64,000 bases of DNA from NCBI RefSeq assembly GCF_000760035.1, contig NZ_JNAO01000013.1, forward strand, positions 248,001-312,000. Direction: 5' to 3'. The number at the start of each line of letters is the position of its first letter. The first letter of the stretch is position 1. Of the stretch, positions 1,807 through 40,132 are shown in pieces. A model generated the notes under the pieces. That model had not been told where the DNA came from. It worked only from the letters and a program-made list of their open reading frames with translations, and did not search any database. The stretch is from Prochlorococcus marinus str. MIT 9314. Lineage in GTDB: Bacteria; Cyanobacteriota; Cyanobacteriia; PCC-6307; Cyanobiaceae. The position numbers and the translations under genes are program-made.

Positions 1807-3306
1807 ATGAGCAAGTTAATAATTCTCGAAATGGCTAATAATCACTCAGGATTTGTCCAACATGGAAAGAATATTATTAAAACCTATTCAAGTTTGTGCT
1901 CTGATTATTTTGATAAATATGAATTTGTTTTTAAATTTCAATATAGAGATCTAGATTCCTTTATTAGGGATGATATGAAAGGTGACTTAAACATTCCTCT
2001 TATAAAGCGTTTCTCCGAGACGAAACTAGAAGATCATGAATTTTTAGAATTAATAAATCTCTGCCGAAAATGTAATTTTGGAACAATGGTAACTCCCTTT
2101 GATGAGATTTCCGTCGAAAAAGCCAATCAACATAATGTTGACTACTTAAAAATTGCTAGCTGTTCATTTGGAGATTGGCCTTTAATGGAAAAAATAAGCG
2201 AGTTTGGTAAAAAGGTTGTTGCCTCTTGCGCTGGGGCAGACCTAGAAAAAGTTGATAACGTTATATCTTTCTTTCTCAATAGAGGTATCTCATTCAGATT
2301 ACAACATTGTGTAGGTGAGTATCCAACTGCTAATAAAGATCTCAATGTAAATCAAGTTTTATTTTTGAAAAAAAAATATCCTGATTTAGAAATTGGATTT
2401 TCTTCGCATGAGAACCCTGATATGACAGTTATTGCTCCTTTAGCGTTAGCTTTAGGAGCAACTTCTTTTGAGAAACATGTTGCTTTAGAAACAGATGAAA
2501 TTAAAAAGAATGCCTATTCGACATCTCCTCATCAATTCTCTAAATGGTTAAAAAGTCTTGATGAAGCAATGGAGATCCTAGGCGATTCTAATCATAGATA
2601 TATTCCCTCAAACAAGGAAAGTAAATCTCTTAGGAATTTGCAAAGGGGAGTTTTTGCTAAAAAAAATTTAAAAAAGAGCCATCTATTATCTAGAGAAGAT
2701 ATTTATTTTGCATTCCCTCCTTCAGAGAATCAATTGACAGCAAATGATTTTTCGAAATACTCAAAGTTTTCTCTAAAATTTAATGTTGAAAAAGGCGAAC
2801 CTATCTTAATTAAAAAAGTAACCGAAGAAAACCTTAGAAATGAAATTAAACAAATAGTTGAAAATGTTTGCAAATTAATAAACTTATCAAATTTAACTAT
2901 TCCTTCAAATGTTGATTTGGAAATTTCACATCATTATGGCATTAAACTTTTTACAAAATTTGGGTTAACGATGATTACAGTTATAAATAGAAGTTATTGC
3001 AAAAAAATATTAATACTTTTGCCTGGGCAAGCTCATCCTGAACAATATCATAAAGTAAAAGAAGAGACTTTTCATGTACTTTGGGGAGAGGGAGTTTTAA
3101 AGATAGATGGCAAAGAAAATAATTTATTTAAAGGTGAAATGCATACTATCCTTCCAGAACAAAGACATTATTTTGAGAGTAAAAATGGATTAATTATTGA
3201 GGAAATATCATCAACACATGATAAGGATGATTCTTTTTACACAGATAAAAAAATTATGGAAAATAAAGATAGAAAGACTGTTCTCTCTCATTGGAGAATT
3301 TCTTAA
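1807..3306 (+). CDS. NeuB-type nonulosonate synthase with SAF and C-terminal cupin domains
   Basis: Probable condensing enzyme of the N-acetylneuraminate synthase family, joining phosphoenolpyruvate to a sugar to make a 2-keto-3-deoxy sugar acid. At 499 residues it is much longer than a plain NeuB of about 340-350. Residues 1 to about 270 form the TIM barrel, with EMANNHSG at 8-15 and the metal/substrate-region motif FEKHVAL. A SAF (antifreeze-like) segment follows around 275-345. The last 150 residues form a cupin, visible as the HPEQYHKVKEETFHVLWGEG stretch and the later LPEQRHYFES histidines. ATG 1807 is preceded by AAGGA at 1801-1805. It opens a nine-gene + strand block and is followed at once by a ThDP enzyme. 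The sugar substrate cannot be told from sequence. A cupin of this type could isomerise or epimerise the precursor, but that is inference. Confidence 0.85.
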   Translation: MSKLIILEMANNHSGFVQHGKNIIKTYSSLCSDYFDKYEFVFKFQYRDLDSFIRDDMKGDLNIPLIKRFSETKLEDHEFLELINLCRKCNFGTMVTPFDEISVEKANQHNVDYLKIASCSFGDWPLMEKISEFGKKVVASCAGADLEKVDNVISFFLNRGISFRLQHCVGEYPTANKDLNVNQVLFLKKKYPDLEIGFSSHENPDMTVIAPLALALGATSFEKHVALETDEIKKNAYSTSPHQFSKWLKSLDEAMEILGDSNHRYIPSNKESKSLRNLQRGVFAKKNLKKSHLLSREDIYFAFPPSENQLTANDFSKYSKFSLKFNVEKGEPILIKKVTEENLRNEIKQIVENVCKLINLSNLTIPSNVDLEISHHYGIKLFTKFGLTMITVINRSYCKKILILLPGQAHPEQYHKVKEETFHVLWGEGVLKIDGKENNLFKGEMHTILPEQRHYFESKNGLIIEEISSTHDKDDSFYTDKKIMENKDRKTVLSHWRIS

Positions 3307-3317
3307 ATAAAAAAAGA

Positions 3318-5138
3318 ATGCCTAGATTAGCTGACGCGGTTTTTGAGTTTATTGAAAATCAAAATATAGACAGAGTATTTTTGTTGCCAGGAGGTGGAGC
3401 AATGCATCTTGTTGATGCAGTTTCAAAAAGACCAAAGATAGATTTTGTCGCTGTACATCATGAACAGGCAGCCGGTATAGCAGCGGAATATTATGCAAGA
3501 ATTAAATCAAAAGTTGGAGTTGCACTTGTTACAACTGGTCCTGGAGCAACTAATGCAATAACCCCTTTTGTAGGGGCTTGGATTGAGTCAATTCCAATAT
3601 TAGTTATTTCAGGTCAAGTTAAACGATCTGATTTAATGAAAAAAGAGGATAATATCAGACAATCTGGTGTTCAAGAGGTAGATATTGTGCCAATGATTGA
3701 AAGATCCTCAAAATTTGCAATAACTTTAAAAGACCCTTTAAAAATTAGATTTGTTTTAGAAAAAGCTTTTTATCTTATGAATCAGGGTAGAAAAGGTCCC
3801 GCCTGGATTGATATTCCATTAGATGTTCAAGGCTGTAATATTCCTGATTGGGAAAATTTGGAATCTTTTAAACACCCACTCAAAATTACTTCTAATAAAA
3901 CTAAAGTGCTTGATGCTTTATATAAAAGTATTTCTTCTTCGCCGAGACCTTTGTTGCTAGTAGGTCATGGCGTAAGGCTCTCTGGATCTGAAATTGAATT
4001 AAAGAAATTTATAGAAAAAATGAAAATCCCTACTGTTTTTACTTGGAATGCATGCGATATGTTGGAATTTAATAATAAGTTTTATATTGGTAAACCAGGC
4101 AATGTTGCAACAAGGGCGGCAAATTTTGCAATTCAAACATGTTCTAACTTTATTTCAATTGGCGCAAGATTAGATAATATTACTACTGCTTATAATATTA
4201 AATTTTTTGCTCGTAATGCTTCTGAAAAATGGGTCTTAGATGTAGATGAAAACCAGTTAAAAATATGTGATTTAAAGGATGCTAAAAAAGTACAAATTGA
4301 CCTTAAATATGCTTTAAATTATTTGCAAAATAAAAATGATTTAGTAGAGAAATCATTATGGATTGGTCATTGTAATTGGTTAAAAGAAAAATATCCAACT
4401 TGTGATGGGGAAATACCTAAAGATAAATATAAATTCACTCATTTTGAAGCTGCAAAAATGTTGTCTGATGCACTACCTGAAAAAAGTACTATCATCACTG
4501 GGAGTTCAGGTCTTGCGATAGAGGCATTTTATGTCGCTTATGAACCAAAAAAATTTCAAAGAATTCTTTTAACCTCTGGACTAGGAGCAATGGGATATGG
4601 ATTACCTGCCTTTGTAGGGGCTTTGGAGGCATTGGACGAAGATAATAAAAAATTTTTAATTGAAAGTGACGGAAGTTTGATGCTTAATCTTCAAGAATTG
4701 CAAACACTGAAGACTAGGAATAGAAAGAATCTAAAATTAATCATCTTAAATAATCAGGGTTATTGTTCAATTAGAGCTACTCAGAAAAATTATTTTAAAG
4801 GAAATTTTGTTGCCTCCAATAAAAAAAGCGGTTTAGAAATTCCAAGTTTAAGGGATATAAGCAATTCTTTTGGTTTAAAGTATTATCCTTTTGAAAAATC
4901 AGATAAAAATAATTTTAATGAAATAATGCAGAAAGAAGAGAATGCCCTGATTGATATTAAAATTGTTGAAGAAGAAGCTTTATGGCCAAAAGTATCAGTT
5001 TTATCAAAGGAAGATGGTTCTCTCGTTTCTCTTCCACTTGAGGACATGAGTCCTCTTCTTTCAGAAAAAGAATTAAGAGAGGCTTTAGGTTTTAATAATA
5101 TCCCTTTAGAAGAATCCTTGATTATTAGAAACGAATAG
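3318..5138 (+). CDS. Thiamine diphosphate-dependent enzyme, acetolactate synthase-like
   Basis: ThDP-dependent carboligase or decarboxylase of the acetolactate synthase large-subunit (IlvB) superfamily. The three expected domains are visible: an N-terminal pyrimidine-binding domain with the cofactor-activating Glu in VHHEQAAGIAAEYYAR, a middle Rossmann domain, and a C-terminal pyrophosphate domain with ESDGSLMLNLQEL leading to LNNQGY, which matches the GDG...NN cofactor motif with Ser for the first Gly. I take ATG 3318 (MPRLADAVFEF) as the start because the homologous region begins there. An in-frame TTG at 3291 would overlap the previous gene by 16 bases. In this setting it is unlikely to be the housekeeping acetolactate synthase. 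Sugar-modifying relatives such as YerE attach a two-carbon unit to a keto sugar. The exact substrate is unknown. Confidence 0.82.
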   Translation: MPRLADAVFEFIENQNIDRVFLLPGGGAMHLVDAVSKRPKIDFVAVHHEQAAGIAAEYYARIKSKVGVALVTTGPGATNAITPFVGAWIESIPILVISGQVKRSDLMKKEDNIRQSGVQEVDIVPMIERSSKFAITLKDPLKIRFVLEKAFYLMNQGRKGPAWIDIPLDVQGCNIPDWENLESFKHPLKITSNKTKVLDALYKSISSSPRPLLLVGHGVRLSGSEIELKKFIEKMKIPTVFTWNACDMLEFNNKFYIGKPGNVATRAANFAIQTCSNFISIGARLDNITTAYNIKFFARNASEKWVLDVDENQLKICDLKDAKKVQIDLKYALNYLQNKNDLVEKSLWIGHCNWLKEKYPTCDGEIPKDKYKFTHFEAAKMLSDALPEKSTIITGSSGLAIEAFYVAYEPKKFQRILLTSGLGAMGYGLPAFVGALEALDEDNKKFLIESDGSLMLNLQELQTLKTRNRKNLKLIILNNQGYCSIRATQKNYFKGNFVASNKKSGLEIPSLRDISNSFGLKYYPFEKSDKNNFNEIMQKEENALIDIKIVEEEALWPKVSVLSKEDGSLVSLPLEDMSPLLSEKELREALGFNNIPLEESLIIRNE

Positions 5139-5276
5139 AAAATTAATCTTTATATTTTAATTTTGATAAATGAAAAAAAATTTCTTCATATAAATTGTTT
5201 GATGATGTTCGTATTAAGAAATCCCTAAAAATTTTTAAAAAATAATGTAATATGAATATAGTTTTAAGCAAAATAA

Positions 5277-6431
5277 ATGGAAGCATCTGTTAAGGTTTTG
5301 TCCAAAGAAGATTCTCATAAGATTCTTTCTAAAGACGCATCATTAACAAATGAGGAAGATAGGAAGAGAAAAGATCAAAGCCAAAAAAGACCAAGAGTGC
5401 ATCAAAAAATTCAAAATTACTTTGAAAATATGATTGATGGAGCGATATCTCCAATCCTAAGATTAAAAATCAATAGATCAGCATGCAATATGAAGTGTGA
5501 GCATTGTTGCGAAGAGCCCTACATGACAAGGGATTTAATTAAAAAAACAGGTAAAAAAGACCCTAGAAGGCAAATGGATTTAGAAGACTACAGAAAATTA
5601 TCTGAAGAAGCTGATGAGTTAGGTCTTTTTAGATTTGTAATAACTGGCGGCGAAGCCCTCTTAGATAGGAATTTGGAAGATCTTATAAAAGTTCTTGATC
5701 CTTATAAACATTTAATAATTCTTGATACCAATGGATTTTATTTTAATGAAGAAAAAGCAAAATGGTTTGCAGGATTAGGTGGTTACAAGGTTCAAATTTC
5801 GTTGGATAGCTGGTACGCAGAAGAACATGATGCTTTTAGAAATACTAAAGGTGCGCATGAAAGAGCTTTAAATGCTTTTAAAGTTGCAAAAGAAGCTGGT
5901 TCTGAGGTCCTATTATCAACTTGCTTAGTCAGAGACAGGGTTTTTACAAAGGAATTTCAATTATTATGTGATTTTTGTGAAACAGAAGCAATACCTTTGT
6001 ATGTGACCTTAGCAAAACCAGTAGGAAGTGCTAGAGGGCATGAAGAGTGGGTATGCACAAAAGAAGACGTTGACCAACTTAAATTCTTGGAAGATAAAAA
6101 GAATATTTTTACTCATATGACACCAAACTATGGGCAGCCTGGAAAATGTATAACCGTCAAAGGTATTAATACAGTAAATCATGATGGAGAAATAGTACCT
6201 TGCCCATATATGGATTTATCAATAGGCAATGTTACTAAAGAACCTCTAAAAGATATCCTCGATAGAGGAATGAGAAATAAATGGTTAGGGCCTTATAGAG
6301 ATGAGTGTATTATTGGAGAAAATTTTGATTTTATAAAGTTCCATAATGAGACTGTTGAAAAGCATTTAAAAGAAACTCCTTATTTACCTGTTCCATATGA
6401 AAAAGGATTTGCTTTGAATGGTTCGGTATAA
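5277..6431 (+). CDS. Radical SAM protein with SPASM-like C-terminus
   Basis: Radical S-adenosylmethionine enzyme of unknown substrate. The [4Fe-4S] cluster motif CNMKCEHC is at residues 70-77, preceded by a charged, Lys-rich N-terminal extension of about 55 residues. The SAM-binding GGE motif (ITGGEALL) follows at about 122-129. The C-terminal part has spaced cysteines (GKCITV, VPCPYMDLSIGNV, RDECIIGEN), which resemble the SPASM/twitch region that binds extra Fe-S clusters. The ATG start is clear, and the preceding 138-base gap probably holds a promoter. It is followed after six bases by an unknown protein, so the two are probably translated together. Radical SAM enzymes in glycan clusters carry out dehydration, epimerisation or methylation of sugars. 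Which of these applies here cannot be read from the sequence. Confidence 0.8.
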   Translation: MEASVKVLSKEDSHKILSKDASLTNEEDRKRKDQSQKRPRVHQKIQNYFENMIDGAISPILRLKINRSACNMKCEHCCEEPYMTRDLIKKTGKKDPRRQMDLEDYRKLSEEADELGLFRFVITGGEALLDRNLEDLIKVLDPYKHLIILDTNGFYFNEEKAKWFAGLGGYKVQISLDSWYAEEHDAFRNTKGAHERALNAFKVAKEAGSEVLLSTCLVRDRVFTKEFQLLCDFCETEAIPLYVTLAKPVGSARGHEEWVCTKEDVDQLKFLEDKKNIFTHMTPNYGQPGKCITVKGINTVNHDGEIVPCPYMDLSIGNVTKEPLKDILDRGMRNKWLGPYRDECIIGENFDFIKFHNETVEKHLKETPYLPVPYEKGFALNGSV

Positions 6432-6437
6432 CTATTG

Positions 6438-7253
6438 ATGGATAATTTAGTTGAAAAATCTCAAATTTTCGATAATAACGGCTGGCGTTTACCAAATGGA
6501 ATTTATGAAACATTCAGCGACCAACCGAAATGGTTTTTTAAGTTAGGGGAAGATTTACCAGAGGATAAACTTGCAATAGATCGAATTGATAAATATAAGA
6601 ATATAAATAGAAAAAATGACGCTTTAGAAGGTCTTTCGAGATTAAATAATAAAATTAACAATAATATTTTCATTAAAAATATCAATAATGGTATTAAAGT
6701 TCCTTTTGTAATTAAAAAGATAGATGTGGATGATATTGGAAAGTTTTTGGAAGAAATCTTACTAGAAAAAGTTTCAAAATCATTTACTGATTTTTTCCCA
6801 GAAAGTCATTTTAAAGCTGTAATTCAAGATAAAACAGATCTTATAAATAAGTTATCCCCATCAGTAAATAGTGGATACAAAGAGTTCTTAAATAAATTGT
6901 CTAAATCAGATATTTGTGGTTATTATTTCCCTCAGGTTCTTCAAGAATATTCAGTTGATTCTCAGATTCTCCAAATGAAGGAAATAAATAAAGTTCCTAA
7001 TCTTTGCTTATCCGGCCCATTAGAAGTTGCAACATCATTAATTGGTACACCAAATCTGCTTATCAGTAAAACGCATTACTCTCCAGTTTTATGTTTAAGT
7101 GGCGTTACACACATAGATGAAAGATTAATTTGTTGTTTTAAATCATATGGAAGACATTTGGAATTTTGGTGTTTAAGTCAAATGCTTTCTAAAAATAAAA
7201 AACAAGTTTCTGAACAATGGTCTGGAGGCTTATCTGTTTTTACAGAATATTAA
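6438..7253 (+). CDS. Hypothetical protein between radical SAM and aldo/keto reductase genes
   Basis: I do not recognise this 271-residue protein. It has no signal peptide, no long hydrophobic segment and no nucleotide-binding motif I can see. The N-terminus (about 5-40) is rich in Trp/Phe and acidic residues (NNGWRLPNGIYETF, WFFKLGEDLPEDKL). A charged Asn/Lys-rich stretch follows, and the C-terminal third (about 185-270) is better ordered, with SGPLEVATSLIG, LICCFKSYGRHLEFW and a final EQWSGGLSVFTEY. I use ATG 6438; a TTG directly before it is less likely. It lies six bases after the radical SAM gene and 18 bases before the aldo/keto reductase, so it is almost certainly co-transcribed with them and may act on the same intermediate. 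Its function is unknown. Confidence 0.7.
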   Translation: MDNLVEKSQIFDNNGWRLPNGIYETFSDQPKWFFKLGEDLPEDKLAIDRIDKYKNINRKNDALEGLSRLNNKINNNIFIKNINNGIKVPFVIKKIDVDDIGKFLEEILLEKVSKSFTDFFPESHFKAVIQDKTDLINKLSPSVNSGYKEFLNKLSKSDICGYYFPQVLQEYSVDSQILQMKEINKVPNLCLSGPLEVATSLIGTPNLLISKTHYSPVLCLSGVTHIDERLICCFKSYGRHLEFWCLSQMLSKNKKQVSEQWSGGLSVFTEY

Positions 7254-7271
7254 TTCATTTTTTGGGGATAA

Positions 7272-8291
7272 ATGCGCATAAGTTTAGGTACCATGCAAAT
7301 GGGCGGAGAATTATCTAAGGAAAAAAGTTTTGAATTACTTAATTACTATTATTTAAGTGGTTATTATAAATTTGATACTGCACAAATGTACCCTGTACCT
7401 AGTTCTCAAGAGAGTTTTAACCGAACTGAAAATATTATTGGGGAATGGGTTAACACGCTTAGTAGAGTAGATAAAGACAAAATTCAGATTTCAACTAAAT
7501 TTCCTAATTTTTCAAAGAAATTAAATTATCTTAGGAAGAACAATAATCCATTTATCTCTTATGAGGAATTAAAAGAATCACTAATTTGTTCCTTGAGAAG
7601 ATTGAATATAGATTGTGTAGAAACTTTTTTTATTCATTGGCCCAGCAGAGAAATAAATAATTTTGGTAAATCTTTTTATCAATCAAAATATAATGAAAAT
7701 GAAATATGTTCATCTTTAGAAGAAACTTATTCAAATCTTTTGGAATTAGCTAAAGAGGGATTATGTAAAAGTGTTGGAATATCTAATGAAACCTCAATAG
7801 GATTGTATTGTTTGAAAAAGATATCAGAAAATTTCAAACAAATTTCCTTATATATCCAGAATTCTTATAATCTTTTAAATCCTACTGTTGATATAAATAT
7901 TTCCGAATTTTGTTTGGCGACAAATATAAATATGCAGGCTCACTCTCCATTAGCCTTTGGAGTTTTAACTGGAAAATATAGGAATAATTTATTACCCAAA
8001 GATTCTCGGAGATTTATATATCCAAATTATTTTGACAGATACCATAATGAAAGAACTTCTGCTTTAATAGAATGTTTATTAAAAATTTGTGATTCTTTTG
8101 AATTAAATCTTACAGAGTTATCTTATAGATATTTACTAAATAATGCATCTGTTTCAGAGATTATTATTGGAGGAAAAAATATTTTACAGATTAAGGAAGC
8201 TATATCATTCTTATCAAAAGGAGAATTGCCAAGAGAGATTTATAAAGAAGTTTTCGATCTTATTACAAATTATTCAATAACGGCTTGGTAA
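7272..8291 (+). CDS. Aldo/keto reductase
   Basis: NAD(P)H-dependent oxidoreductase of the aldo/keto reductase superfamily, 339 residues, close to the family's usual 310-350. The catalytic tetrad is visible: Asp and Tyr in KFDTAQMYP (about 35-43), Lys in QISTKFPNFSKK (about 77) and His in FFIHWPSRE. The C-terminal cofactor-binding part contains SEIIIGGKN, the usual NADPH-site signature. ATG 7272 is preceded by GGGG about six bases upstream, a convincing ribosome site. The stop overlaps the next gene's ATG by one base (TAATG). In deoxysugar clusters such enzymes reduce 3- or 4-keto sugars. That role is plausible here because the next gene resembles a sugar C-methyltransferase, but it is inference. 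Confidence 0.88.
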   Translation: MRISLGTMQMGGELSKEKSFELLNYYYLSGYYKFDTAQMYPVPSSQESFNRTENIIGEWVNTLSRVDKDKIQISTKFPNFSKKLNYLRKNNNPFISYEELKESLICSLRRLNIDCVETFFIHWPSREINNFGKSFYQSKYNENEICSSLEETYSNLLELAKEGLCKSVGISNETSIGLYCLKKISENFKQISLYIQNSYNLLNPTVDINISEFCLATNINMQAHSPLAFGVLTGKYRNNLLPKDSRRFIYPNYFDRYHNERTSALIECLLKICDSFELNLTELSYRYLLNNASVSEIIIGGKNILQIKEAISFLSKGELPREIYKEVFDLITNYSITAW

Positions 8292-9448
8292 TGAAAAAGA
8301 TTTTAAAGTGTTCATTATGCGGAGAACCTTTAAAAGATTCTCAAATGGTTTTGCTAAAAAATATTCCTGAGTCAGCACAAGGCTTTTTAAAAGAACAAGA
8401 TAAGATTTCAAAAAACTATTCCTCATACCTTGTTCAATGTAATTATTGCAAACATGTGCAATTGAATAGCAAGCCAGTTGAGTATTATAAAAAGGTTATC
8501 AGATCTGTTGGGGTTTCAGCAGAAATGGTAAATTATAGAAAAAAGCAATTTGAAGATATTCGTAAAAAATATTTTGGCAACTCCAAAAAAATTAAGGTTT
8601 TGGAAGTTGGATCTGCAACTGGCGAATATTCGGAAATTTTATTAAATACTTTTGATCAAGTTGTAGCTACTGAAAAGGGAGCACAGAATATTAAATCTAA
8701 TCTTGAAAAAGGAATTGATTGTATCAATACTCATCCTGACGACTTTGATTTTATAGAAAAATTAAATAAATTAGGAAAATTTGATTTAATTTGTTGTTTT
8801 AGTTATCTAGAACATTTGCCAAATCCAAAGAATACTTTAAATTTGCTTAATAATCTTTTAAATAATAACGGTTTTTATTTAATTGAATTGCCAAATAGTG
8901 AAATGATTTTTAGAAGAGGTTTATTAAATGAAATCATTCCTGATCATTTATCTTACTTTACTGTAAATACGGCTACATCATTAATGATGAATTCAGGTAT
9001 AGAAGTTATTAATGCTTCTTGTAATTGGGATAATTATATAATTTCATTAATTTGTAGAAAAACTATTGAAAATCCAATTCAAAAAATTAATCATGATTAT
9101 CAATTGTTCAAAAAGAGATTAGATCTTTTATTTAATAAAGAAATTTATTTGCATCAAAATATTGTTATTTGGGGAGCTGGTCATCAATCTCTTTTTACAA
9201 TCTCCACCACTATTTTTGGTAAAATCGCATCTTATATCGTTGATAGTTCCACTACAAAACAAGGTTTATATGCTCCTGGATCAGGATTAAAAATATATAG
9301 TCCAGATAGACTAAAGACTCACACGCCTGATGTTTTGATAATCGCATGTGCAGGCTATAATAAAGAGGTTCTTAATACAGTAAAAAATATGAAACTTACT
9401 ATTAATTGTATTTATCTTCTTGATGGAATTGATTTAATAAAAGTTTGA
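8291..9448 (+). CDS. SAM-dependent sugar C-methyltransferase-like protein
   Basis: This 385-residue protein has the three-part layout of NDP-hexose C-methyltransferases of the TylCIII/NovU kind. An N-terminal zinc-finger-like section has paired cysteines (CSLCGEPL at about 7-14, CNYCKHVQ at about 50-57). The central methyltransferase domain has the SAM motif VLEVGSATGEYSE around residue 105 and FDLICCFSYLEHL further on. The C-terminal Rossmann-like domain contains VIWGAGHQSLF and a VDSS stretch. The start is ATG 8291, overlapping the previous stop by one base; the TTG two codons earlier is not needed. Such enzymes add a methyl branch at C3 of a 4-keto-6-deoxysugar, or in related branches act at C5 or C2. 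The position and substrate here are unknown. Confidence 0.83.
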   Translation: MKKILKCSLCGEPLKDSQMVLLKNIPESAQGFLKEQDKISKNYSSYLVQCNYCKHVQLNSKPVEYYKKVIRSVGVSAEMVNYRKKQFEDIRKKYFGNSKKIKVLEVGSATGEYSEILLNTFDQVVATEKGAQNIKSNLEKGIDCINTHPDDFDFIEKLNKLGKFDLICCFSYLEHLPNPKNTLNLLNNLLNNNGFYLIELPNSEMIFRRGLLNEIIPDHLSYFTVNTATSLMMNSGIEVINASCNWDNYIISLICRKTIENPIQKINHDYQLFKKRLDLLFNKEIYLHQNIVIWGAGHQSLFTISTTIFGKIASYIVDSSTTKQGLYAPGSGLKIYSPDRLKTHTPDVLIIACAGYNKEVLNTVKNMKLTINCIYLLDGIDLIKV

Positions 9449-9449
9449 T

Positions 9450-9983
9450 ATGAAAAAAGCACAAGATGGATTGCCCTCTCATCTTTTTGAATACGTTAGT
9501 AGTATTACTCCTATAATTAATGTTGATTTACTCGTTCATAATCCAAGTAAAGGTATTATTTTGTCTTGGAGATCTGATAAGTTTTATGGGCCTGGATGGC
9601 ATGTGCCAGGGGGGATAATAAGATTTAAAGAAAATTTCTTAGATAGATTGAGGTACGTTGCAAGAAATGAAATTAATTCAAGTGAGGATTTGAAATTCAA
9701 TTTTATCTCAATTAATCAAATAATGAATCCTAACAGAGATATTAGAGGGCATTTTATTTCTTTATTATTTTCTGCAGAAACATATCAAAGTAGTATTGAA
9801 AATAAACTTGCAAAAGAAGGAGATAATGGTTTTCTCAAATGGCACAAATATTCACCCAAAAATTTAATAAAGCAGCATAAAAGATATGAAAGCCATATGA
9901 AACAAATATTTAGCAATACTTGCAATAAGAAAATAGATATTGGAAACATTATGGATTGTTATTCTCCTGCTTATGAAAAGTAA
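9450..9983 (+). CDS. Nudix hydrolase, GDP-mannose mannosyl hydrolase-like
   Basis: Small Nudix-fold protein of 177 residues. The Nudix region is at about 52-76: GPGWHVPGGIIRFKEN followed by FLDRLRYVARNEI. It lacks the canonical REUXEE of most Nudix boxes. That deviation and the W(S)WRSDKFYGPGW-type approach resemble GDP-mannose mannosyl hydrolase (Gmm/NudD), which cleaves GDP-sugars to free sugar and GDP. The ATG starts one base after the previous stop, and its end overlaps the next gene by 11 bases. In GDP-sugar clusters such enzymes are thought to adjust GDP-mannose or GDP-fucose pools. The substrate here is inferred only. Confidence 0.78.
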   Translation: MKKAQDGLPSHLFEYVSSITPIINVDLLVHNPSKGIILSWRSDKFYGPGWHVPGGIIRFKENFLDRLRYVARNEINSSEDLKFNFISINQIMNPNRDIRGHFISLLFSAETYQSSIENKLAKEGDNGFLKWHKYSPKNLIKQHKRYESHMKQIFSNTCNKKIDIGNIMDCYSPAYEK

Positions 9984-10989
9984 TATAGATGAACTTGCAG
10001 ATAATATAAACAATAGCTCTCTCCTGATTCTTGGAGGAACTGGCCTCTTCGCTAAAGAGTTGTTGCCTAGACTAATAAATCGTATCGAAAGAAAGAATAT
10101 CAAAACAGTTATTTATATTACAACTAGAAGTAAAACAAAAGCAATTTCGTTTATACCTGAAATTAAAAAATCCTATATAAGATTTATAACTGTTGACTTT
10201 TTGAAAAATAATGAGATTGGTATAGACATAAATCCTAAATATATTATTCATATGGCTACCACTTCTGCATATGAAACATTTAATAAGATATCCCAATTAT
10301 CTAAATTCTTGGTTCTAAAAAATTCATCTGAAGCAGTTTCAAAATTGATAGAGAAAAATGATGTCAAGAGATTACTTTTTGTGAGTTCAGGAGTCGCTTA
10401 TGGAGATGTTGAAATCTATGATGAAAATACTAAAGCATGTTTAGACTATCTTGATTCTAAAAACTCCTTAGCTGTAGGAAAATTATATTCTGAGTTTTTA
10501 CTTAACTCAGTATGTGAAGCTAATAATACTGAATTTAAGATTGCAAGATGTTTTTCTTTTATAAGTAAATATTTACCTTATGACATTCATTATGCAGTTG
10601 GTAATTTTGTTAGGGATGCAGTTAATGAAAAAGATATTGTAATTAAAAGTGATGGTAAAGATATTAGATCCTATCAAGATATATCAGATGCTGTTGAATG
10701 GTTATCCTTTTTATTAAATAAAGACTTTCCTTATAAAGTAATAAATATTGGTTCTGACATAGGAATAACAATTTATGATTTAGCGAAAAAAGTTAAGCAC
10801 CTACTTAATACAAATTCAAAAATAATTGTAAAAAACAACAATATAATTGATGATAATAACAAGAGGGTTAATTATGTTCCCTCTTTAAAATTAGCCTATA
10901 AAATTGGTTTAAAACAAAGGGTAAAATTAGAAGATAGTATTATTAAACTTGCAGAACATATTAAAAAAGAAAATTTAAATAATGTTTAA
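9973..10989 (+). CDS. NAD-dependent epimerase/dehydratase family protein (SDR) without the usual catalytic Tyr
   Basis: Extended short-chain dehydrogenase, 338 residues from ATG 9973; a TTG at 9940 would overlap the Nudix gene by 44 bases and is less likely. The NAD-binding motif LLILGGTGLFAKEL is near residue 20, and the middle strand VKRLLFVSSGVAYGD fits sugar-nucleotide epimerases. At the place where YxxxK is expected, the sequence is SLAVGKLYSE: the Lys is present but Leu replaces the Tyr. CFSFISKYLP and YQDISDAVEWL further on are typical of the substrate half. Loss of the Tyr suggests an altered mechanism or a different residue acting as base. It shares overlaps with both neighbours, so it is part of the same operon. 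Confidence 0.8.
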   Translation: MKSNIDELADNINNSSLLILGGTGLFAKELLPRLINRIERKNIKTVIYITTRSKTKAISFIPEIKKSYIRFITVDFLKNNEIGIDINPKYIIHMATTSAYETFNKISQLSKFLVLKNSSEAVSKLIEKNDVKRLLFVSSGVAYGDVEIYDENTKACLDYLDSKNSLAVGKLYSEFLLNSVCEANNTEFKIARCFSFISKYLPYDIHYAVGNFVRDAVNEKDIVIKSDGKDIRSYQDISDAVEWLSFLLNKDFPYKVINIGSDIGITIYDLAKKVKHLLNTNSKIIVKNNNIIDDNNKRVNYVPSLKLAYKIGLKQRVKLEDSIIKLAEHIKKENLNNV

Positions 10990-11638
10990 ATACTTAATTT
11001 TTGACTTAGATGGAACTTTAATTAATTCTGAAGAAGGAATTAAAGAATCTTTAATAAATAGTTTCAAAAAGGCAAAGATTGAGATTTTGATACCTTATCA
11101 GAATATTGAAATAGGCCCACCTTTGGATGAAACAATATTATTATGCAATAGTGGTTTAAATTATGAGCAATTAGAAAAAATAAAGACTTTTTTTAGGGAG
11201 CAATATGATTTTCTTTATTACAAGAAATTAGAGGTCTTTAATAATGTAACTCTGATTTTAGATAAATTTAAAAGAAGTAAAATTGAAATGTTTATAGCGA
11301 CTAATAAAAGATATGAACCAACTCTAAAAATAGTGAATTATTTGAATTGGAATAAATATTTTAAAAATATTTATTCAATAGATAGGTATTATTTAGAAAC
11401 TATGAGTAAAACTAATATGTTAAAAATATTATTAGAAAAGGAAAAAATTCTTGCTAGAGAATCACTTTATATTGGAGATAAATATTCTGACTTTATTGCT
11501 TCTTCATTAAACCAAATATCATTTATTGGAGCTAACTGGGGAGGCAGCGACTTTTATAAAAAAGTTCATGATTTTAAAATAATAGATAAAATAAACGAGG
11601 AATCTGTTAATTCCTTAAGTTCCCTATTTATAAAGTGA
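10982..11638 (+). CDS. HAD-superfamily hydrolase, phosphoglycolate-phosphatase-like
   Basis: Haloacid dehalogenase-type phosphatase of 218 residues. Motif I is FDLDGTLINSEEG (about 7-19), with both catalytic Asp residues. Motif II is IEMFIATNKR (about 97-106), with Thr. The Lys of motif III lies in the following helices, and motif IV is LYIGDKYSDF (about 161-170). The cap domain sits between motifs I and II, as in phosphoglycolate phosphatase and GmhB-unlike HADs. It overlaps the previous SDR by eight bases and closes the nine-gene block. It probably removes a phosphate from a sugar intermediate, for example the 9-phosphate product of a NeuB-type reaction, but this is inference. Confidence 0.84.
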   Translation: MFKYLIFDLDGTLINSEEGIKESLINSFKKAKIEILIPYQNIEIGPPLDETILLCNSGLNYEQLEKIKTFFREQYDFLYYKKLEVFNNVTLILDKFKRSKIEMFIATNKRYEPTLKIVNYLNWNKYFKNIYSIDRYYLETMSKTNMLKILLEKEKILARESLYIGDKYSDFIASSLNQISFIGANWGGSDFYKKVHDFKIIDKINEESVNSLSSLFIK

Positions 11639-11785: not shown

Positions 11786-12991
11786 ATGCAGAATTTTGAA
11801 CAAATTTCATATGCAAAAACTGTTTATGGACAGGAAGAAGTTGATGCTGTAGTCAAATGCCTGAACGAATCTACTCAAATGGGTAAATGTTCTAGGGAGT
11901 TTGAAAGTAAAATCGCTAAACTTTTTGAGAAAAAACATGCTCTTTATGTAAATTCAGGATCATCAGCTTTGTTTATTGGCATAGAAGCATGCAATTTCCC
12001 AAAAGGCTCTGAAGTTATTACTCCCGCATTAACATTTTCTACAACAATTGGTTCTTTACTTAAAAATGAATTAATACCTGTTTTTACAGATGTAAAACCA
12101 TTAACTTACTGTATAAATGTTAATCAAGTAGAAGAATTAATTTCGAATAAAACCAAAGCAATCTTAGCTCCTAATTTAATGGGGAATATATGCGAATGGA
12201 AAAAACTTAGAGAAATCGCTGATAAATATGACCTTTTATTAATTGAAGATTCTGCGGATACATTAGGTGCGACCTTCGATGATGGCAGATCTACAGGATC
12301 GTTTACAGATATATCAATAACGAGTTTTTATGGATCGCATATTATTAATTGCGCAGGGAATGGGGGTGCATTGGCAATAAATGATAATCAAATTCTGAAA
12401 TCTGCAAAACTTTTAAGATCTTGGGGTAGGAGTTCATCTCTTTTTGATGAGAAAAGTGAGGCAATAGAAAATAGATTCAATATTGATTTAGATGGAATTG
12501 ATTATGATGCCAAGTTCGTTTTCGAAACTGTTGGATATAATGTGGAAGGGAACGAGGTAGGAGCTGCTTTTGGTCTGGAGCAACTAAAAAAATTAAAAAA
12601 GAATATTACAACAAGGCAGTTAAACTTCAAAAAACAAACTCAGTTTTTTAATAAACATAGCAAATTCTTTTTAAATCCTATAGAAACAGAAGGAGCAAAT
12701 ACCTCTTGGTTGGCTTTCCCAATCTTAATAACGCAAGATGCGCCTTTTAAAAGAAAAGATTTTCAAATTTACTTAGAAAAAAGAAATATACAAACTAGGG
12801 TTGTATTTACAGGAAATATTTTAAGGCAGCCAATGTGTGAAGGGATTGAAAAAAGAGTGACTGCTTCAGGATTGCATCATGCTGACGAAGTTATGAAGAG
12901 AGGAGTTTTATTACCTGTTCACCATGGTATGACTGATGAAATGTTTAATCGTCTTCATGAAACAATAGAAGAATTTATTAACAAGTTTTAG
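11786..12991 (+). CDS. DegT/DnrJ/EryC1/StrS-family PLP enzyme, RfbH/ColD-like (His replaces the PLP lysine)
   Basis: PLP-fold enzyme of the sugar aminotransferase family, 401 residues. The opening FEQISYAKTVYGQEEV and the pocket motif YVNSGSSALFIGIEA (about 52-66) are as in RfbH. Where aminotransferases have SF..SFHaxK, this protein has TSFYGSHIINCAGNGG, with His185 at or next to the Schiff-base lysine position. This His is the hallmark of 3-dehydratases such as RfbH (E1) and ColD, which remove the C3 hydroxyl of a 4-keto-6-deoxysugar. The Fe-S cysteines of RfbH are not seen in the segment after SWGR. Its neighbours are an E1-like ThDP pair, and rfbF/rfbG lie 7-10 kb away, so a CDP-4-keto-6-deoxyglucose substrate is a reasonable guess. 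A conventional aminotransferase role is unlikely without the Lys. Confidence 0.82.
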   Translation: MQNFEQISYAKTVYGQEEVDAVVKCLNESTQMGKCSREFESKIAKLFEKKHALYVNSGSSALFIGIEACNFPKGSEVITPALTFSTTIGSLLKNELIPVFTDVKPLTYCINVNQVEELISNKTKAILAPNLMGNICEWKKLREIADKYDLLLIEDSADTLGATFDDGRSTGSFTDISITSFYGSHIINCAGNGGALAINDNQILKSAKLLRSWGRSSSLFDEKSEAIENRFNIDLDGIDYDAKFVFETVGYNVEGNEVGAAFGLEQLKKLKKNITTRQLNFKKQTQFFNKHSKFFLNPIETEGANTSWLAFPILITQDAPFKRKDFQIYLEKRNIQTRVVFTGNILRQPMCEGIEKRVTASGLHHADEVMKRGVLLPVHHGMTDEMFNRLHETIEEFINKF

Positions 12992-13002
12992 ACTTATTAA
13001 AG

Positions 13003-13539
13003 CTATTTTTCGTTATAGAAATCTGCGAATTCAACAATTAAAAATGCCTTCTTTTTTTTGTATTCATAAGCATATTTATAGGCTGGAATAATATCCTCTG
13101 TTTCTTTAAGTTCAATTATTTCGACATTTGTAAGAATTTTCTTGAATCCATCACTCATATTTCCAATATGTTGATGGCCAGGGAATAATGGTTTTTGGGA
13201 GCCCACTGCAGTTCTTATGATTGGGTTCGGACAAAATTTATTTTCACTCATGATTGGATATTTGTCGAGATGATTAACTAATTGATTGGTTGCACATAAA
13301 AGAAAGTTCCATCTTGGGAATATACTTATTGGCCTGAAATTTGTTAAACATAAACCTGAACTTATTCCAAGCTGAGTTTCTTCAAATACTGGAAGTTCAA
13401 TTCTTTTTTCTTCTGGAACTTTCTTTAAGGTGTTAAATAATGCAGTGCCTGGGCAATTTACAGCTTGACCTATAAAAATGGTGTCATTCTTTTCTCCAAG
13501 CCATTTCATAGATTCAGAAAGTGCGTCAAAATATTTCAT
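13003..13539 (-). CDS. ThDP-dependent transketolase/E1 beta-like subunit
   Basis: Pyrimidine-binding half of a split ThDP enzyme, 178 residues, shorter than the roughly 325-residue E1 beta of 2-oxoacid dehydrogenases because the C-terminal domain is missing. The cofactor-activating Glu is expected in LPVFEETQLGISSG (about 49-62), followed by FPRWNFLLCATNQLVNHL, typical of the family. The ATG at 13539 starts three bases after the stop of the alpha-like gene, so the two are translated as a pair. It converges with the RfbH-like gene with an 11-base gap. Split ThDP enzymes in sugar clusters are thought to transfer a two-carbon unit onto a keto sugar. This role is inference. Confidence 0.8.
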   Translation of the reverse strand: MKYFDALSESMKWLGEKNDTIFIGQAVNCPGTALFNTLKKVPEEKRIELPVFEETQLGISSGLCLTNFRPISIFPRWNFLLCATNQLVNHLDKYPIMSENKFCPNPIIRTAVGSQKPLFPGHQHIGNMSDGFKKILTNVEIIELKETEDIIPAYKYAYEYKKKKAFLIVEFADFYNEK

Positions 13540-13542
13540 AAT

Positions 13543-14148
13543 CTAAAATTGAACTCTTTTACCTGCCCCGGCATGTGGCCAAGGTAGATCATATTCATAA
13601 AATCTTACTTTTGGTGACCCTTTAAGTGAATAGTCATTTAGTCCCCAAGTAGGTAATGTATCGGTACAAACTGATTTATGATTAATTTCTATTATGAACT
13701 CTATAGGTAAATCATGACCAATAGCATATTTAACTGCTTCATTTGCAAATCCAGTTTCAGAGGTCATTCCGCCCATAAATAAATATACAATAGAGTCTTT
13801 AATTTTCCTTTTTTTCAAACCTAAAGCAGTTCCTAAAGCAATAGGAATTATACCTCCAACAATAGCACTTGTATAAACTTTATATTCTGGATAAATAAGG
13901 GTTATACTTTTACCATTTTTGATGTCATTAAATAACTTATCTTCTGGAACACCCTTTAGAAGGCAATGATAGTGAGACCTCCATGAACTGAATACCCAGT
14001 CTTGATGATTTATGTCTTTAAAAATGTTTATAAGTTGTGTTTCATTATTCCCGTGAAGATGGATTGGTGCTTTTATCTTTGCATCATTGAAAGTATCAGC
14101 AACCTTTCTTTCGAAATCTATTAAGGATTTTTTATCTAATAAATTCAT
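13543..14148 (-). CDS. ThDP-dependent transketolase/E1 alpha-like subunit with altered GDG motif
   Basis: Pyrophosphate-binding half of the split ThDP enzyme, 201 residues, compared with about 330 for pyruvate dehydrogenase E1 alpha. Landmarks are SSWRSHYHCLLKGVP (about 75-89), corresponding to the cofactor loop, and AIVGGIIPIALGTALGLK (about 115-132). The metal/cofactor motif GDG...NN appears as FMGGMTSETGFANEA followed by FIIEINHKSV: the Asp is replaced by Gly and only the second Asn is kept. The ATG at 14148 is clear, and the gene is transcribed away from the GT10 gene at 14238 with an 89-base shared upstream region. Whether the altered motif still binds magnesium and ThDP is open. Confidence 0.8.
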   Translation of the reverse strand: MNLLDKKSLIDFERKVADTFNDAKIKAPIHLHGNNETQLINIFKDINHQDWVFSSWRSHYHCLLKGVPEDKLFNDIKNGKSITLIYPEYKVYTSAIVGGIIPIALGTALGLKKRKIKDSIVYLFMGGMTSETGFANEAVKYAIGHDLPIEFIIEINHKSVCTDTLPTWGLNDYSLKGSPKVRFYEYDLPWPHAGAGKRVQF

Positions 14149-19784: not shown

Positions 19785-20861
19785 CTATAAATTTAAATAT
19801 TTATTGACGTCCTTAAGGCAAATACCCATTGCATGCTTTGAGTTTAAATAAAAATCTTTATACCAATTTGTTGTCATTTCTACAGATAAATCAAAATTTA
19901 ATTTAGGACTCCAATTTAGTAATTTTTGAGATTTATTAATACAAAGATTTAAGTTTTCTGATTCATGATGATAAATCGTGTTTTTATCGAAATGATATTT
20001 TCCTGGCCAAATAGAATATATTTTTTCTATTAGTTCTAATACCGATTTATTGTAAGTTGTGTTAGGACCAAAGTTAAATGCATGCGAAGATATTTTATTT
20101 TCATGATTAATATTATTCTCTTCAAGGTATTCAATTAGTTTTAAATATCCATTTAAGGGGTCTAAAACATGTTGCCAAGGTCTCGTTGAATATGGATTTC
20201 TTATCTTAAGAGAATCTTTTTTTAGAATTGATTTAATGGCATCAGGAATTATTCTGTTTTTTGCCCAATCTCCACCACCAATTACATTTCCAGCTCTTGC
20301 CGTGGCTAATTTTATAGATTTATTATTCAAAAAAGATAAACGCCAACTCGCCACAGCAATCTCTGTAGCTGCTTTAGAAGCACTATAAGGGTCATATCCT
20401 CCAAGAAAATCCTCTTCAGAAAATTCTTGATTTAAATTATCATTCCAATAAACCTTATCAGTTGTAATTATTAAAGAAGTGCCTGAGAAATTTGTATGAG
20501 TTATTGCTTCTAATAAATTTAAAGTGCCCATCAAATTAGTATCCCAAGTTTGGAGTGGATTTTTATAGCTCTCTATTACTAATGGTTGTGCAGCTAAATG
20601 AATAATTATTTCTGGTCTAAAATTAGATATTTCTTTTTTAAGAAGATCATAATTCCTTATATCGCCAATCACATTTTCTATTTGATTTTTTAATTCTTTA
20701 GATACTTTTTTAAATAATGATTCTTTTTCTACACATAAAGAATATCCTTTTATTTTTGCACCTAATTCTAATAATAAAATTGTTAACCAAGTACCTTTAA
20801 AACCAGTATTTCCAGTAATAAATACTTTTTTGTTTTCCCAAAATGTACTTCTGAGTGTCAT
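19785..20861 (-). CDS. rfbG: CDP-glucose 4,6-dehydratase
   Basis: Converts CDP-D-glucose to CDP-4-keto-6-deoxy-D-glucose, the branch point for 3,6-dideoxyhexoses and branched CDP-sugars. At 358 residues the length is typical. The NAD motif VFITGNTGFKGTWL (13-26) is characteristic of RfbG. HLAAQPLVIESYKNP is near 87-101, TTDKVYWN replaces the usual TDEVYG and is standard for this enzyme, and YSASKAATEIAV gives the catalytic Tyr and Lys. RPWQHVLDPLNGYL is another family signature. The ATG is immediately adjacent to the stop of rfbF, so the pair is co-translated. Confidence 0.95.
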   Translation of the reverse strand: MTLRSTFWENKKVFITGNTGFKGTWLTILLLELGAKIKGYSLCVEKESLFKKVSKELKNQIENVIGDIRNYDLLKKEISNFRPEIIIHLAAQPLVIESYKNPLQTWDTNLMGTLNLLEAITHTNFSGTSLIITTDKVYWNDNLNQEFSEEDFLGGYDPYSASKAATEIAVASWRLSFLNNKSIKLATARAGNVIGGGDWAKNRIIPDAIKSILKKDSLKIRNPYSTRPWQHVLDPLNGYLKLIEYLEENNINHENKISSHAFNFGPNTTYNKSVLELIEKIYSIWPGKYHFDKNTIYHHESENLNLCINKSQKLLNWSPKLNFDLSVEMTTNWYKDFYLNSKHAMGICLKDVNKYLNL

Positions 20862-21632
20862 TTACCAAATCTTCCAGGGAGCTGAATTTGAGCTCCACAA
20901 TTCATTTAAATAAATGAGATCTCTTAATGTATCCATTGGTTGCCAGAATCCATCATGTTTATAAGCACTAATTTGTAAACTTTTAGCTAATTTTTCTAAT
21001 GGTTCTCTTTCCCATACTGAGTCTTCACCAGATATATCATTTAAGGCTTGAGGTTCTAAAACAAAAAATCCACCATTAATCCATGCTTTTTCACCTATTG
21101 GCTTTTCTTTAAATTGGGCAACAAGATTATCTTCATTAATTTCAAGAGCTCCAAATCTTGAAGGAGGTTTAACCGCAGTAAGAGTAGCTTTCTTTTTATT
21201 TATTTTATGAAATTTTAAAAGTTCATTAATATTTATATTCGCTACGCCATCGCCATATGTCATGAAAAATGTTTCGTTGTTCAAAAAATCCTTAATTTTT
21301 TTTAATCTGCCCCCAGTCATTGTAAGTTTTCCTGTATCGACAAGAGTTATTTTCCATGGCTCAACATTCTTTTTGTGCACTTTTATAGTATTTGATGACA
21401 TGTCAAATGTTATGTCACTTGAATGCAAAGAATAGTTAGCAAAATATTCTTTAATAACATAGCCTTTGTATCCACAGCATATGATAAATTCATTAACATC
21501 ATATGCACTAAAGATTTTCATTATATGCCAAAGAATTGGCCTATCTCCAATTTCTACCATTGGCTTTGGTTTTAATTGAGTCTCTTCACTCAGCCTTGTC
21601 CCTAATCCTCCTGCTAAAATTACTGCCTTCAT
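20862..21632 (-). CDS. rfbF: Glucose-1-phosphate cytidylyltransferase
   Basis: Makes CDP-glucose from CTP and glucose 1-phosphate, the first step of the CDP-deoxysugar route. At 256 residues it has the standard RfbF length. The nucleotide-binding signature VILAGGLGTRLSEET is at 4-18, followed by KPKPMVEIGDRPILWHIM (22-39) with the catalytic Lys, and FMTYGDGVANIN with the metal-binding Asp near 128. The end has DGFWQPMDTLRDLIYLN, a typical RfbF C-terminus. The 192-base gap to the divergent gene at 21825 should hold promoters for both directions. Confidence 0.96.
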   Translation of the reverse strand: MKAVILAGGLGTRLSEETQLKPKPMVEIGDRPILWHIMKIFSAYDVNEFIICCGYKGYVIKEYFANYSLHSSDITFDMSSNTIKVHKKNVEPWKITLVDTGKLTMTGGRLKKIKDFLNNETFFMTYGDGVANININELLKFHKINKKKATLTAVKPPSRFGALEINEDNLVAQFKEKPIGEKAWINGGFFVLEPQALNDISGEDSVWEREPLEKLAKSLQISAYKHDGFWQPMDTLRDLIYLNELWSSNSAPWKIW

Positions 21633-39055: not shown

Positions 39056-40132
39056 TTATAAATCTTTTTGAACTTCTTTTTTATCCTCTTCTACCATTTC
39101 TTTTATCATTTGCTCCAAAGTAGTTTTTGGTTCCCATCCCATATCTTTGTAAGCTTTTGATGAGTCTCCTCTTAATTCTTCAACTTCAGTGGGTCTAAAA
39201 TATTTCGGGTCAACTCTTATTATGATTTTATTATTATCTGCTCTTCTACCTATTTCATTTATTCCCTCTCCTTCCCAAATAATGGCAGGTTGACTTTTAT
39301 TTTTATTCCAACCTATTTGTTTTGCAGTTAATTCAATGAACGTTCTTATTGTTTCCATTCTTCCTGTTGAAATTACATAATCTTTGGCTTCTTTTTGTTG
39401 AAGCATTAACCATTGCATAGCCACATAATCTTTTGCATGCCCCCAATCTCTTTTAGCATTTAAATTTCCCATATGTAAGCATTCATCTAATCCAGCTTCT
39501 ATTCTTGAGAGCCCTCTTGTTATCTTTCTAGTTGCGAAAGTTTCTCCTCTTCTAGGACTTTCATGATTAAACAAAATACCATTACAAGCAAATATACCAT
39601 AAGCCTCTCTGTAGTTTACTACTATCCAATATGCATACAGTTTGGCGACACCATAGGGACTTCTTGGATAAAAAGGAGTATTCTCATTTTGGGGACTAAT
39701 TTGAACTTTTCCATATAATTCACTAGTGCTTGCTTGATAAAGTTTAGTTTTCTTTGATAATCCCAAGATTCTTATTGCTTCAAGAATTCTGAGAGTTCCT
39801 AATGCATCGCTATTTGCAGTGTATTCAGGGGTTTCAAAACTTACAGCTACATGACTTTGTGCACCTAAATTATATATTTCGTCTGGCTCGATTTCTTTTA
39901 TAATTCTTATTAAATTTGTGCTATCTGTAAGGTCGCCATAGTGCAAAATGAAATTTAAATTATTTTCGTGTGGATCTTGATAAAGATGATCTATCCTTCC
40001 TGTATTAAAACTACTTGATCTTCTTTTTATGCCATGAACTTCATAACCTTTTTCTAATAAAAACTCGCTTAAATAACTCCCATCTTGACCTGTTACGCCC
40101 GTTATTAGTGCTTTTTTGTTTTTATTTTTCAT
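39056..40132 (-). CDS. gmd: GDP-mannose 4,6-dehydratase
   Basis: Converts GDP-mannose to GDP-4-keto-6-deoxymannose, the precursor of GDP-fucose and GDP-perosamine-type sugars. The protein has 358 residues. The NADP motif [19 protein letters not shown] (8-26) is the Gmd form. [20 protein letters not shown] near 32-51 is diagnostic. [11 protein letters not shown] and the catalytic [16 protein letters not shown] follow, then [18 protein letters not shown] and [13 protein letters not shown]. The gene is transcribed away from the next + strand SDR with a 200-base gap. Its product serves fcl at 36704-37723 and perhaps the PLP enzyme at 28026. Confidence 0.97.

Follow-up and report, generated by a model that had tools for sequence, protein, structure and literature searches.

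The described systems closest to the gene block reported here are pathways for C4-branched sugars. In the yersiniose A pathway of Yersinia pseudotuberculosis (DdhA-D, YerE, YerF), genes for a CDP-3,6-dideoxy-4-ketohexose (CDP, cytidine diphosphate) are combined with a carboligase that depends on thiamine diphosphate (ThDP), and the pathway as described involves no NeuB partner (PMC4509608). According to excerpts of a review (PMC12247030), YerE-like enzymes attach alpha-keto acids to CDP-4-keto-3,6-dideoxyglucose. YerE itself moves two carbons from pyruvate; ErwE (erwiniose) and MMAR_2332 (caryophyllose) use longer, hydroxylated alpha-keto acid donors, and ErwE rejects pyruvate and favors 4-hydroxy-2-oxo acids. 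The excerpts do not state the source of these donors, and the word NeuB is absent from the review as a whole. For JanthE, a Janthinobacterium enzyme of solved structure (8rph), the same review gives CDG as ThDP motif, and its physiological substrates are still unidentified according to the part of PMC12188165 that was available. Here, we analyzed a block of nine genes (1807-11638, plus strand) in a stretch of 64,000 nucleotides from Prochlorococcus marinus str. MIT 9314 (contig NZ_JNAO01000013.1, positions 248,001 to 312,000), which is called the window throughout. The first two genes encode a NeuB-SAF-cupin fusion protein and a YerE/JanthE-like ThDP enzyme. The block probably makes, as we judge with some reserve, a CDP-linked 3,6-dideoxyhexose that bears a long polyhydroxyalkyl branch at C4, for which the NeuB-cupin protein would supply the acyl donor.

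Gene block and predicted pathway

The original prediction had listed nine open reading frames in a row, and all of them were recovered at their positions. Seven of the eight junctions overlap or measure at most 30 bases, and the exception is a gap of 138 bases between the ThDP gene and the radical S-adenosylmethionine (SAM) gene. The domain assignments agreed with our Pfam and NCBIfam calls, in which gene 4 remained without a family. The run extends past gene 9, since a gene for an RfbH/DdhC-like 3-dehydrase (11786-12991) follows on the same strand 147 bases downstream. Some 8 kb beyond the block, the minus strand (19785-21632) carries RfbG (CDP-glucose 4,6-dehydratase, 19785-20861; TIGR02622, 433 bits, cut-off 278) and RfbF (glucose-1-phosphate cytidylyltransferase, 20862-21632; TIGR02623, 440 bits, cut-off 300), both above their equivalog cut-offs.

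From these genes, a pathway of five steps can be proposed. The first has homology support: RfbF, RfbG, and the RfbH-like protein would convert glucose-1-phosphate to CDP-4-keto-3,6-dideoxyglucose. In the second, the cupin domain would act as a ketose/aldose isomerase, and the aldose would be condensed with phosphoenolpyruvate (PEP) by the NeuB domain. The resulting 2-keto-3-deoxy acid would be a C8 acid if the sugar is a pentose and a C9 acid if it is a hexose. The ThDP enzyme would then decarboxylate this acid and transfer the resulting acyl anion to the keto group at C4 of the acceptor, which should give a tertiary alcohol with a branch that is deoxy at its second carbon. By calculation, this coupling would add 194.079 Da to the acceptor with a pentose-derived donor and 224.090 Da with a hexose-derived one. 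In the fourth step, the branch ketone would be reduced by the short-chain dehydrogenase/reductase (SDR) and/or the aldo/keto reductase, and the haloacid dehalogenase-type (HAD) phosphatase would remove a phosphate, either ahead of step 2 or following it. Finally, the methyltransferase, the Nudix protein, and the radical SAM enzyme with its gene 4 partner may tailor the product for a surface glycan.

The 4-hydroxy-2-oxo acids that ErwE favors are the product type of a PEP aldol condensation of the NeuB kind. Caryophyllose is 3,6-dideoxy-4-C-[D-altro-1,3,4,5-tetrahydroxyhexyl]-D-xylo-hexose, the C2' of which is deoxy (PMC5706390, in the part available). This position would fit a 2-keto-3-deoxy donor, as in the scheme that carbon comes from C3 of PEP. 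The branch of the Mycobacterium gastri sugar would, we assume, fit a donor derived from a pentose.

The ThDP linkage, the presence of RfbF, RfbG, and RfbH-like genes in the same island, and the failure to find a CMP-sulosonate synthetase (CMP, cytidine monophosphate) in the genome place the predicted pathway with the yersiniose/erwiniose/caryophyllose kind and not with the nonulosonates. The original prediction of a perhaps branched sugar and a YerE-type enzyme is supported. Two of its other claims have to be revised. It expected a keto-sugar acid as product, but the acid made by NeuB is better read as an acyl donor that is consumed and loses its carboxylate. It also saw a route wholly outside known clusters, but the ThDP, RfbF, RfbG, and RfbH-like genes assign it to CDP-3,6-dideoxy-4-ketohexose branching, a kind already known.

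The ThDP enzyme

The ThDP enzyme (gene 2, 3291-5138, plus strand) carries all three TPP_enzyme domains (N, M, and C), the catalytic glutamate (HHEQ), and the xDG...N motif. Its best solved match is JanthE (8rph; 323 bits, E 3e-95), and the best acetolactate synthase reached 200 bits. Carboligation to a ketone is the reaction that we propose for it. A housekeeping acetolactate synthase was ruled out; the genome has a separate protein of that type, which is 32% identical.

The first glycine of the GDG motif is replaced by serine in the window enzyme (ESDGS). JanthE, its closest solved relative, likewise has an unusual motif, which is CDG instead of SDG. When we aligned the window enzyme with the ThDP enzymes of 75 loci that carry NeuB-cupin genes (see below), ESDGS was found in 52 of the 76 rows, two of which are blank at this site. 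SDG replaces GDG in most NeuB-linked ThDP enzymes. In a tree of 98 proteins, all 63 SDG proteins grouped in a single clade (68 leaves, support 0.875), which also contained four EGDG proteins and one ETDG protein. GDG-type enzymes from outside this clade also occur in NeuB-cupin loci. For two relatives with the CDG motif (L187, L188), no NeuB gene was found within the stretch examined.

Conservation of the NeuB-ThDP neighborhood

For a scan of genome contigs, six NeuB sequences were aligned and used as query. This search yielded at least 524 relatives, some of which may lack the cupin, and the best 80 of them, picked by similarity to the NeuB-SAF-cupin protein alone, were examined with their neighborhoods. 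Many source records are metagenome assemblies, so that single phylum labels, archaeal ones most of all, need caution. A ThDP gene was present in 75 of the 80 loci and lay within 1 kb in 69. It was located downstream of the NeuB-cupin gene on the same strand in 72 loci (with a gap of at most 100 bases in 58) and upstream in three. Relatives of RfbH, RfbG, and RfbF were found in 56, 51, and 46 loci, respectively; 57 loci combined the ThDP gene with at least one of the three rfb genes, and 42 contained all three rfb genes. If the ThDP enzyme, the radical SAM enzyme, gene 4, the methyltransferase, the Nudix protein, the SDR, the HAD phosphatase, and RfbH are taken as eight partners, seven or eight of them were present in 14 loci, which include Sulfurimicrobium, Beijerinckiaceae, SAR116, and Chromobacterium records. 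The co-occurrence of the genes in other genomes, on which the original prediction had been made to depend, is evident from these counts.

As control, we used 20 hand-picked loci of ordinary NeuB relatives, and a ThDP gene of this type was found in none of them. RfbH-like DegT proteins (11 loci) and RfbG-like SDR proteins (10 loci) did occur there, mostly at 23-30% identity; one control locus (L118) carries RfbF and RfbG at 61% and 48% identity. For the reciprocal search, the window ThDP enzyme was compared with 398 genomes of another phylum (E 1e-80). We obtained 20 matches, one of which (G302) is the genome of Pseudomonas capeferrum WCS358, already present among the loci as L051. A NeuB-cupin gene stood beside seven of the ten best matches (517-571 bits); two more of these ten (L172, L175) are cut by contig ends, and for the tenth (L174) none was found in the stretch examined. 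Among the ten weaker matches (279-363 bits), only one (L190) had a NeuB-type gene as neighbor, and this gene lacks the cupin.

These data bear on the alternative that survives best, according to which there are two products: the ThDP enzyme would make a short pyruvate-derived branch of the yersiniose type, and the NeuB-cupin protein would make an undescribed 2-keto-3-deoxy acid for the same glycan. Pyruvate is indeed the donor of YerE (PMC12247030, excerpts), and a few NeuB-cupin loci (5/80) have no ThDP gene. However, the order and adjacency from NeuB to ThDP are tight, the weaker ThDP relatives are mostly without NeuB, and the genome search gave no CMP-sulosonate synthetase that could activate such an acid. 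We consider two separate products unlikely, although this explanation deserves to be kept in mind.

Two further arrangements were seen among the loci. A protein of about 200 amino acids without Pfam match is encoded between the NeuB-cupin and ThDP genes in L099 (11420-12013) and in seven other loci. In L033 (6118-8591), genes that we read from their translations as 3-dehydroquinate-synthase-like and kinase-like lie between ThDP and NeuB.

Origin of the acceptor sugar

The RfbH-like protein of the window is the best RfbH match of the genome. Compared with solved structures, it scored 213 bits with E1 (3bcx) but at most 145 bits with ColD-type chains, and it keeps the histidine that replaces the lysine binding pyridoxal phosphate (SFYGSH). 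The [2Fe-2S] cysteines of the CxC...C pattern are present in 53 of 57 aligned RfbH rows. The four rows without the full set are the window protein, L037, L103 (which has a lysine-type motif), and L057 (one cysteine missing). These cysteines have been lost in the picocyanobacterial RfbH-like proteins of L037 and L031 (5682-6884) as well, in which the E1-type histidine is kept.

On this basis, one may ask for a different acceptor: the RfbH-like protein might be ColD-like and act on GDP-4-keto-6-deoxymannose (GDP, guanosine diphosphate), with the remaining steps as proposed above. A gene at 39056-40132, read as Gmd, could provide this substrate, and the loss of the Fe-S cysteines with retention of the histidine would be in line with this idea, since ColD presumably lacks the cysteines, too. 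Against it stand the higher score with E1 than with ColD-type chains, the RfbF and RfbG scores above the equivalog cut-offs, and the frequent location of RfbH-like relatives beside rfbF/rfbG elsewhere. A GDP-linked acceptor ranks behind two separate products, and we regard it as rather unlikely.

The NeuB-SAF-cupin protein

The fusion protein (gene 1, 1807-3306, plus strand) matches Pfam NeuB (116 bits), Cupin_2, and Lyx_isomer. The closest solved relative of its NeuB part is 3g8r (294 bits), which carries the name "probable spore coat protein E", and other NeuB-type chains reached at most 72 bits. The cupin at the C terminus is related in sequence to D-lyxose/D-mannose ketol-isomerases (2y0o, E 6e-12; 7nzo, E 3e-10). 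It shares with these enzymes the H, E, H ligand positions but differs from them by its fusion to NeuB and by a glutamine as first ligand in most sequences. We propose that the protein consists of a ketose/aldose isomerase domain and a PEP-aldol synthase domain, which together would give the 2-keto-3-deoxy acid.

In the alignment of the NeuB-cupin proteins (81 rows: the 80 loci and the window), eleven positions of the NeuB domain are conserved in 79-81 rows. These positions match PEP- and metal-binding active-site residues of NeuB. The cupin metal ligands second H, E, and last H are present in 80 of the 81 rows. At the position of NeuB R314, which presumably recognizes the N-acetyl group of the sugar, we found phenylalanine in 55 rows, isoleucine in 25, and methionine in one but never arginine; in 1xuu, the arginine is visible at this site. 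Thus, the protein type shares with the N-acetylneuraminate synthase NeuB/SiaC the PEP/metal barrel residues and the SAF-type tail, but it differs at R314 (F/I/M) and at N184 (G/A), has an isomerase-like cupin fused to it, and occurs here in a genome in which no NeuA was found. In line with this, the window protein stayed far below the equivalog cut-offs of TIGR03569 (118 bits, cut-off 400) and TIGR03586 (110 bits, cut-off 340). A search with PF02348 across the 16 contigs of the host genome gave no CMP-sulosonate synthetase or other NeuA/KdsB-type gene; its two matches are GlmU and IspD, as judged from their sequences. The original prediction had noted that the usual partners of NeuA type are missing from the block and that no usual nonulosonate route is encoded. 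The first point can now be extended to the genome, and the second agrees with the scores, the residues at R314, and the missing NeuA.

The NeuB domain might also work later than the ThDP enzyme or independently of it, with an aldehyde formed by the ThDP or the radical SAM enzyme as substrate. Gene order cannot reveal the order of reactions, but the expected product of the ThDP enzyme is a nucleotide sugar that lacks a free aldehyde, and the fusion of NeuB to an isomerase-like cupin points to a simple sugar as its acceptor, so that we judge such a late role improbable. An ordinary nonulosonate pathway (sialic, legionaminic, or pseudaminic acid-like) was rejected as most improbable, because the missed cut-offs, the residues at R314, and the failure to find NeuA in the genome outweigh the NeuB homology, the conserved PEP/metal residues, and the single case of a NeuB-cupin gene beside a cytidylyltransferase-like gene (L032).

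Evaluation of the donor hypothesis

Several observations weigh against NeuB-cupin as source of the acyl donor for a CDP-linked acceptor. At the position of NeuB N184, presumably an active-site residue, all 81 rows have glycine or alanine, and the first cupin metal ligand is glutamine in 65 rows, histidine in 15, and a gap in one. The window RfbH-like protein lacks all three [2Fe-2S] cysteines and scores below the RfbH cut-off (NF011936, 318 bits, cut-off 423). No ThDP gene was found in five of the 80 loci (L057, L084, L094, L103, L104), among which L103 alone is flanked by 10 kb on either side, and in 23 of the 80 loci, the stretch examined contains no ThDP gene or none of the rfb genes. Conversely, L174 has an SDG-type ThDP enzyme and no NeuB gene within the stretch examined. 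In L032 (11291-13901), a NeuB-cupin gene (41% identity) lies beside a CTP_transf_3 gene (67 bits) and no ThDP gene is present; possibly, the same acid has another fate there. NeuB relatives of this type were detected in only five of 148 mycobacterial genomes (E 1e-40), and for this reason caryophyllose (Mycobacterium marinum) may get its donor by other means. Finally, we found neither an enzyme activity nor a sugar structure for any of these loci.

Branching of a CDP-3,6-dideoxy-4-ketohexose by YerE-like enzymes is already known, and compared with yersiniose A, the window block adds the NeuB-cupin protein and the tailoring genes. The new element would be NeuB-cupin as donor maker. In the open literature, we found no paper that links NeuB with YerE-like enzymes, nor a named source for the donors of long-branched sugars. 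The pair of NeuB-cupin and ThDP enzyme recurs in many other microbes, where sialic acid is apparently not made. A broader claim can be derived, and for us it stands at about an even chance: a widespread, unnamed route to long-branched "higher" sugars, in which 2-keto-3-deoxy acids from the NeuB-isomerase fusion would be acyl donors rather than sugars, mainly for a distinct clade of SDG-motif ThDP enzymes, and in which the radical SAM enzyme and a partner of possibly new fold would tailor the product. If NeuB-cupin does make the donor, the NeuB relatives at the 80 loci examined, and perhaps also many among the at least 524, work in a pathway other than their name implies. Two enzymes would then be enough to test the branch of such surface sugars, and a new set of carboligases would be available for making tertiary alcohols.

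Radical SAM pair and other tailoring genes

Gene 3 (5277-6431, plus strand, like all genes of the block) encodes a radical SAM/SPASM-type enzyme (Radical_SAM and SPASM domains) with relatives in 35 of the 80 loci. The CxxxCxxC motif and three further cysteines (C291, C309, C344) are invariant in 21 rows. Gene 4 (6435-7253) matched neither a Pfam nor an NCBIfam family and has relatives in 18 loci; in all 18, it directly follows the radical SAM gene, and in L056 and L062 it is fused to it. Its confident AlphaFold2 model (pLDDT 90.6, pTM 0.91) gave no match at E ≤0.001 in a Foldseek search of the PDB, and the best Z-score in VIA-align was 2.8 (82 aligned residues, root mean square deviation 3.4). 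From this model, the fold is possibly new. A radical SAM protein of the B12-binding type is encoded in L042 (15033-16730) and 10 other loci; none was noticed among the genes of the window block.

The sugar C-methyltransferase-like protein (gene 6, 8285-9448; Methyltransf_23 and Methyltransf_14) has relatives in 53 loci, and its C-terminal Methyltransf_14 domain, a feature of TylCIII-type C-methyltransferases, scored 34.7 bits (cut-off 23.5). The Nudix protein (gene 7, 9450-9983) reached 19.5 bits with NUDIX, below the Pfam cut-off of 21.1, and weakly resembles GDP-mannose mannosyl hydrolase (25 bits, cut-off 146). Across the 80 loci, it has relatives in 35, and the radical SAM gene accompanies Nudix (28/35) as well as gene 4 (18/18). 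Across the loci, neither the SDR of the Epimerase family (gene 8, 9940-10989; relatives in 44 loci) nor the HAD phosphatase (gene 9, 10982-11638, HAD_2; relatives in 25 loci) was associated with radical SAM or Nudix. The true start of gene 8 probably lies downstream of the TTG at 9940, and an ATG is located 11 codons further in. The SDR is a candidate YerF-like ketoreductase or epimerase, and the HAD protein is a candidate phosphatase acting on the precursor ketose or on the acid made by NeuB. The Tas-like aldo/keto reductase (gene 5, 7272-8291, Aldo_ket_red) is a candidate for reduction of the new ketone; as core component of the pathway it found no support, having a relative in a single locus (L037).

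Other features of the window

The window looks like a surface-polysaccharide island, and the host genome (1.69 Mb, 16 contigs) is 99.99% complete. Among named records, L037 (Prochlorococcus sp. AG-676-L21) comes closest to the block as a whole, and its genes 1-10 are 78-99% identical. The block is rare among genomes of the genus: its radical SAM protein (E 1e-60) was found in two of 121, the host genome included. Downstream of the RfbH-like gene, two short adjoining genes on the minus strand (13003-14148) encode proteins of 201 amino acids (E1_dh-like, 35 bits) and 178 amino acids (no Pfam match). The two resemble a compact ThDP pair of the E1 alpha/beta kind, and a relative of the 178-residue protein is present in L037. 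Between 26474 and 31700, there are HddA-, GmhA-, HddC-, and GmhB-like genes, which all score below their cut-offs; their combination suggests a GDP-heptose route within the same island.

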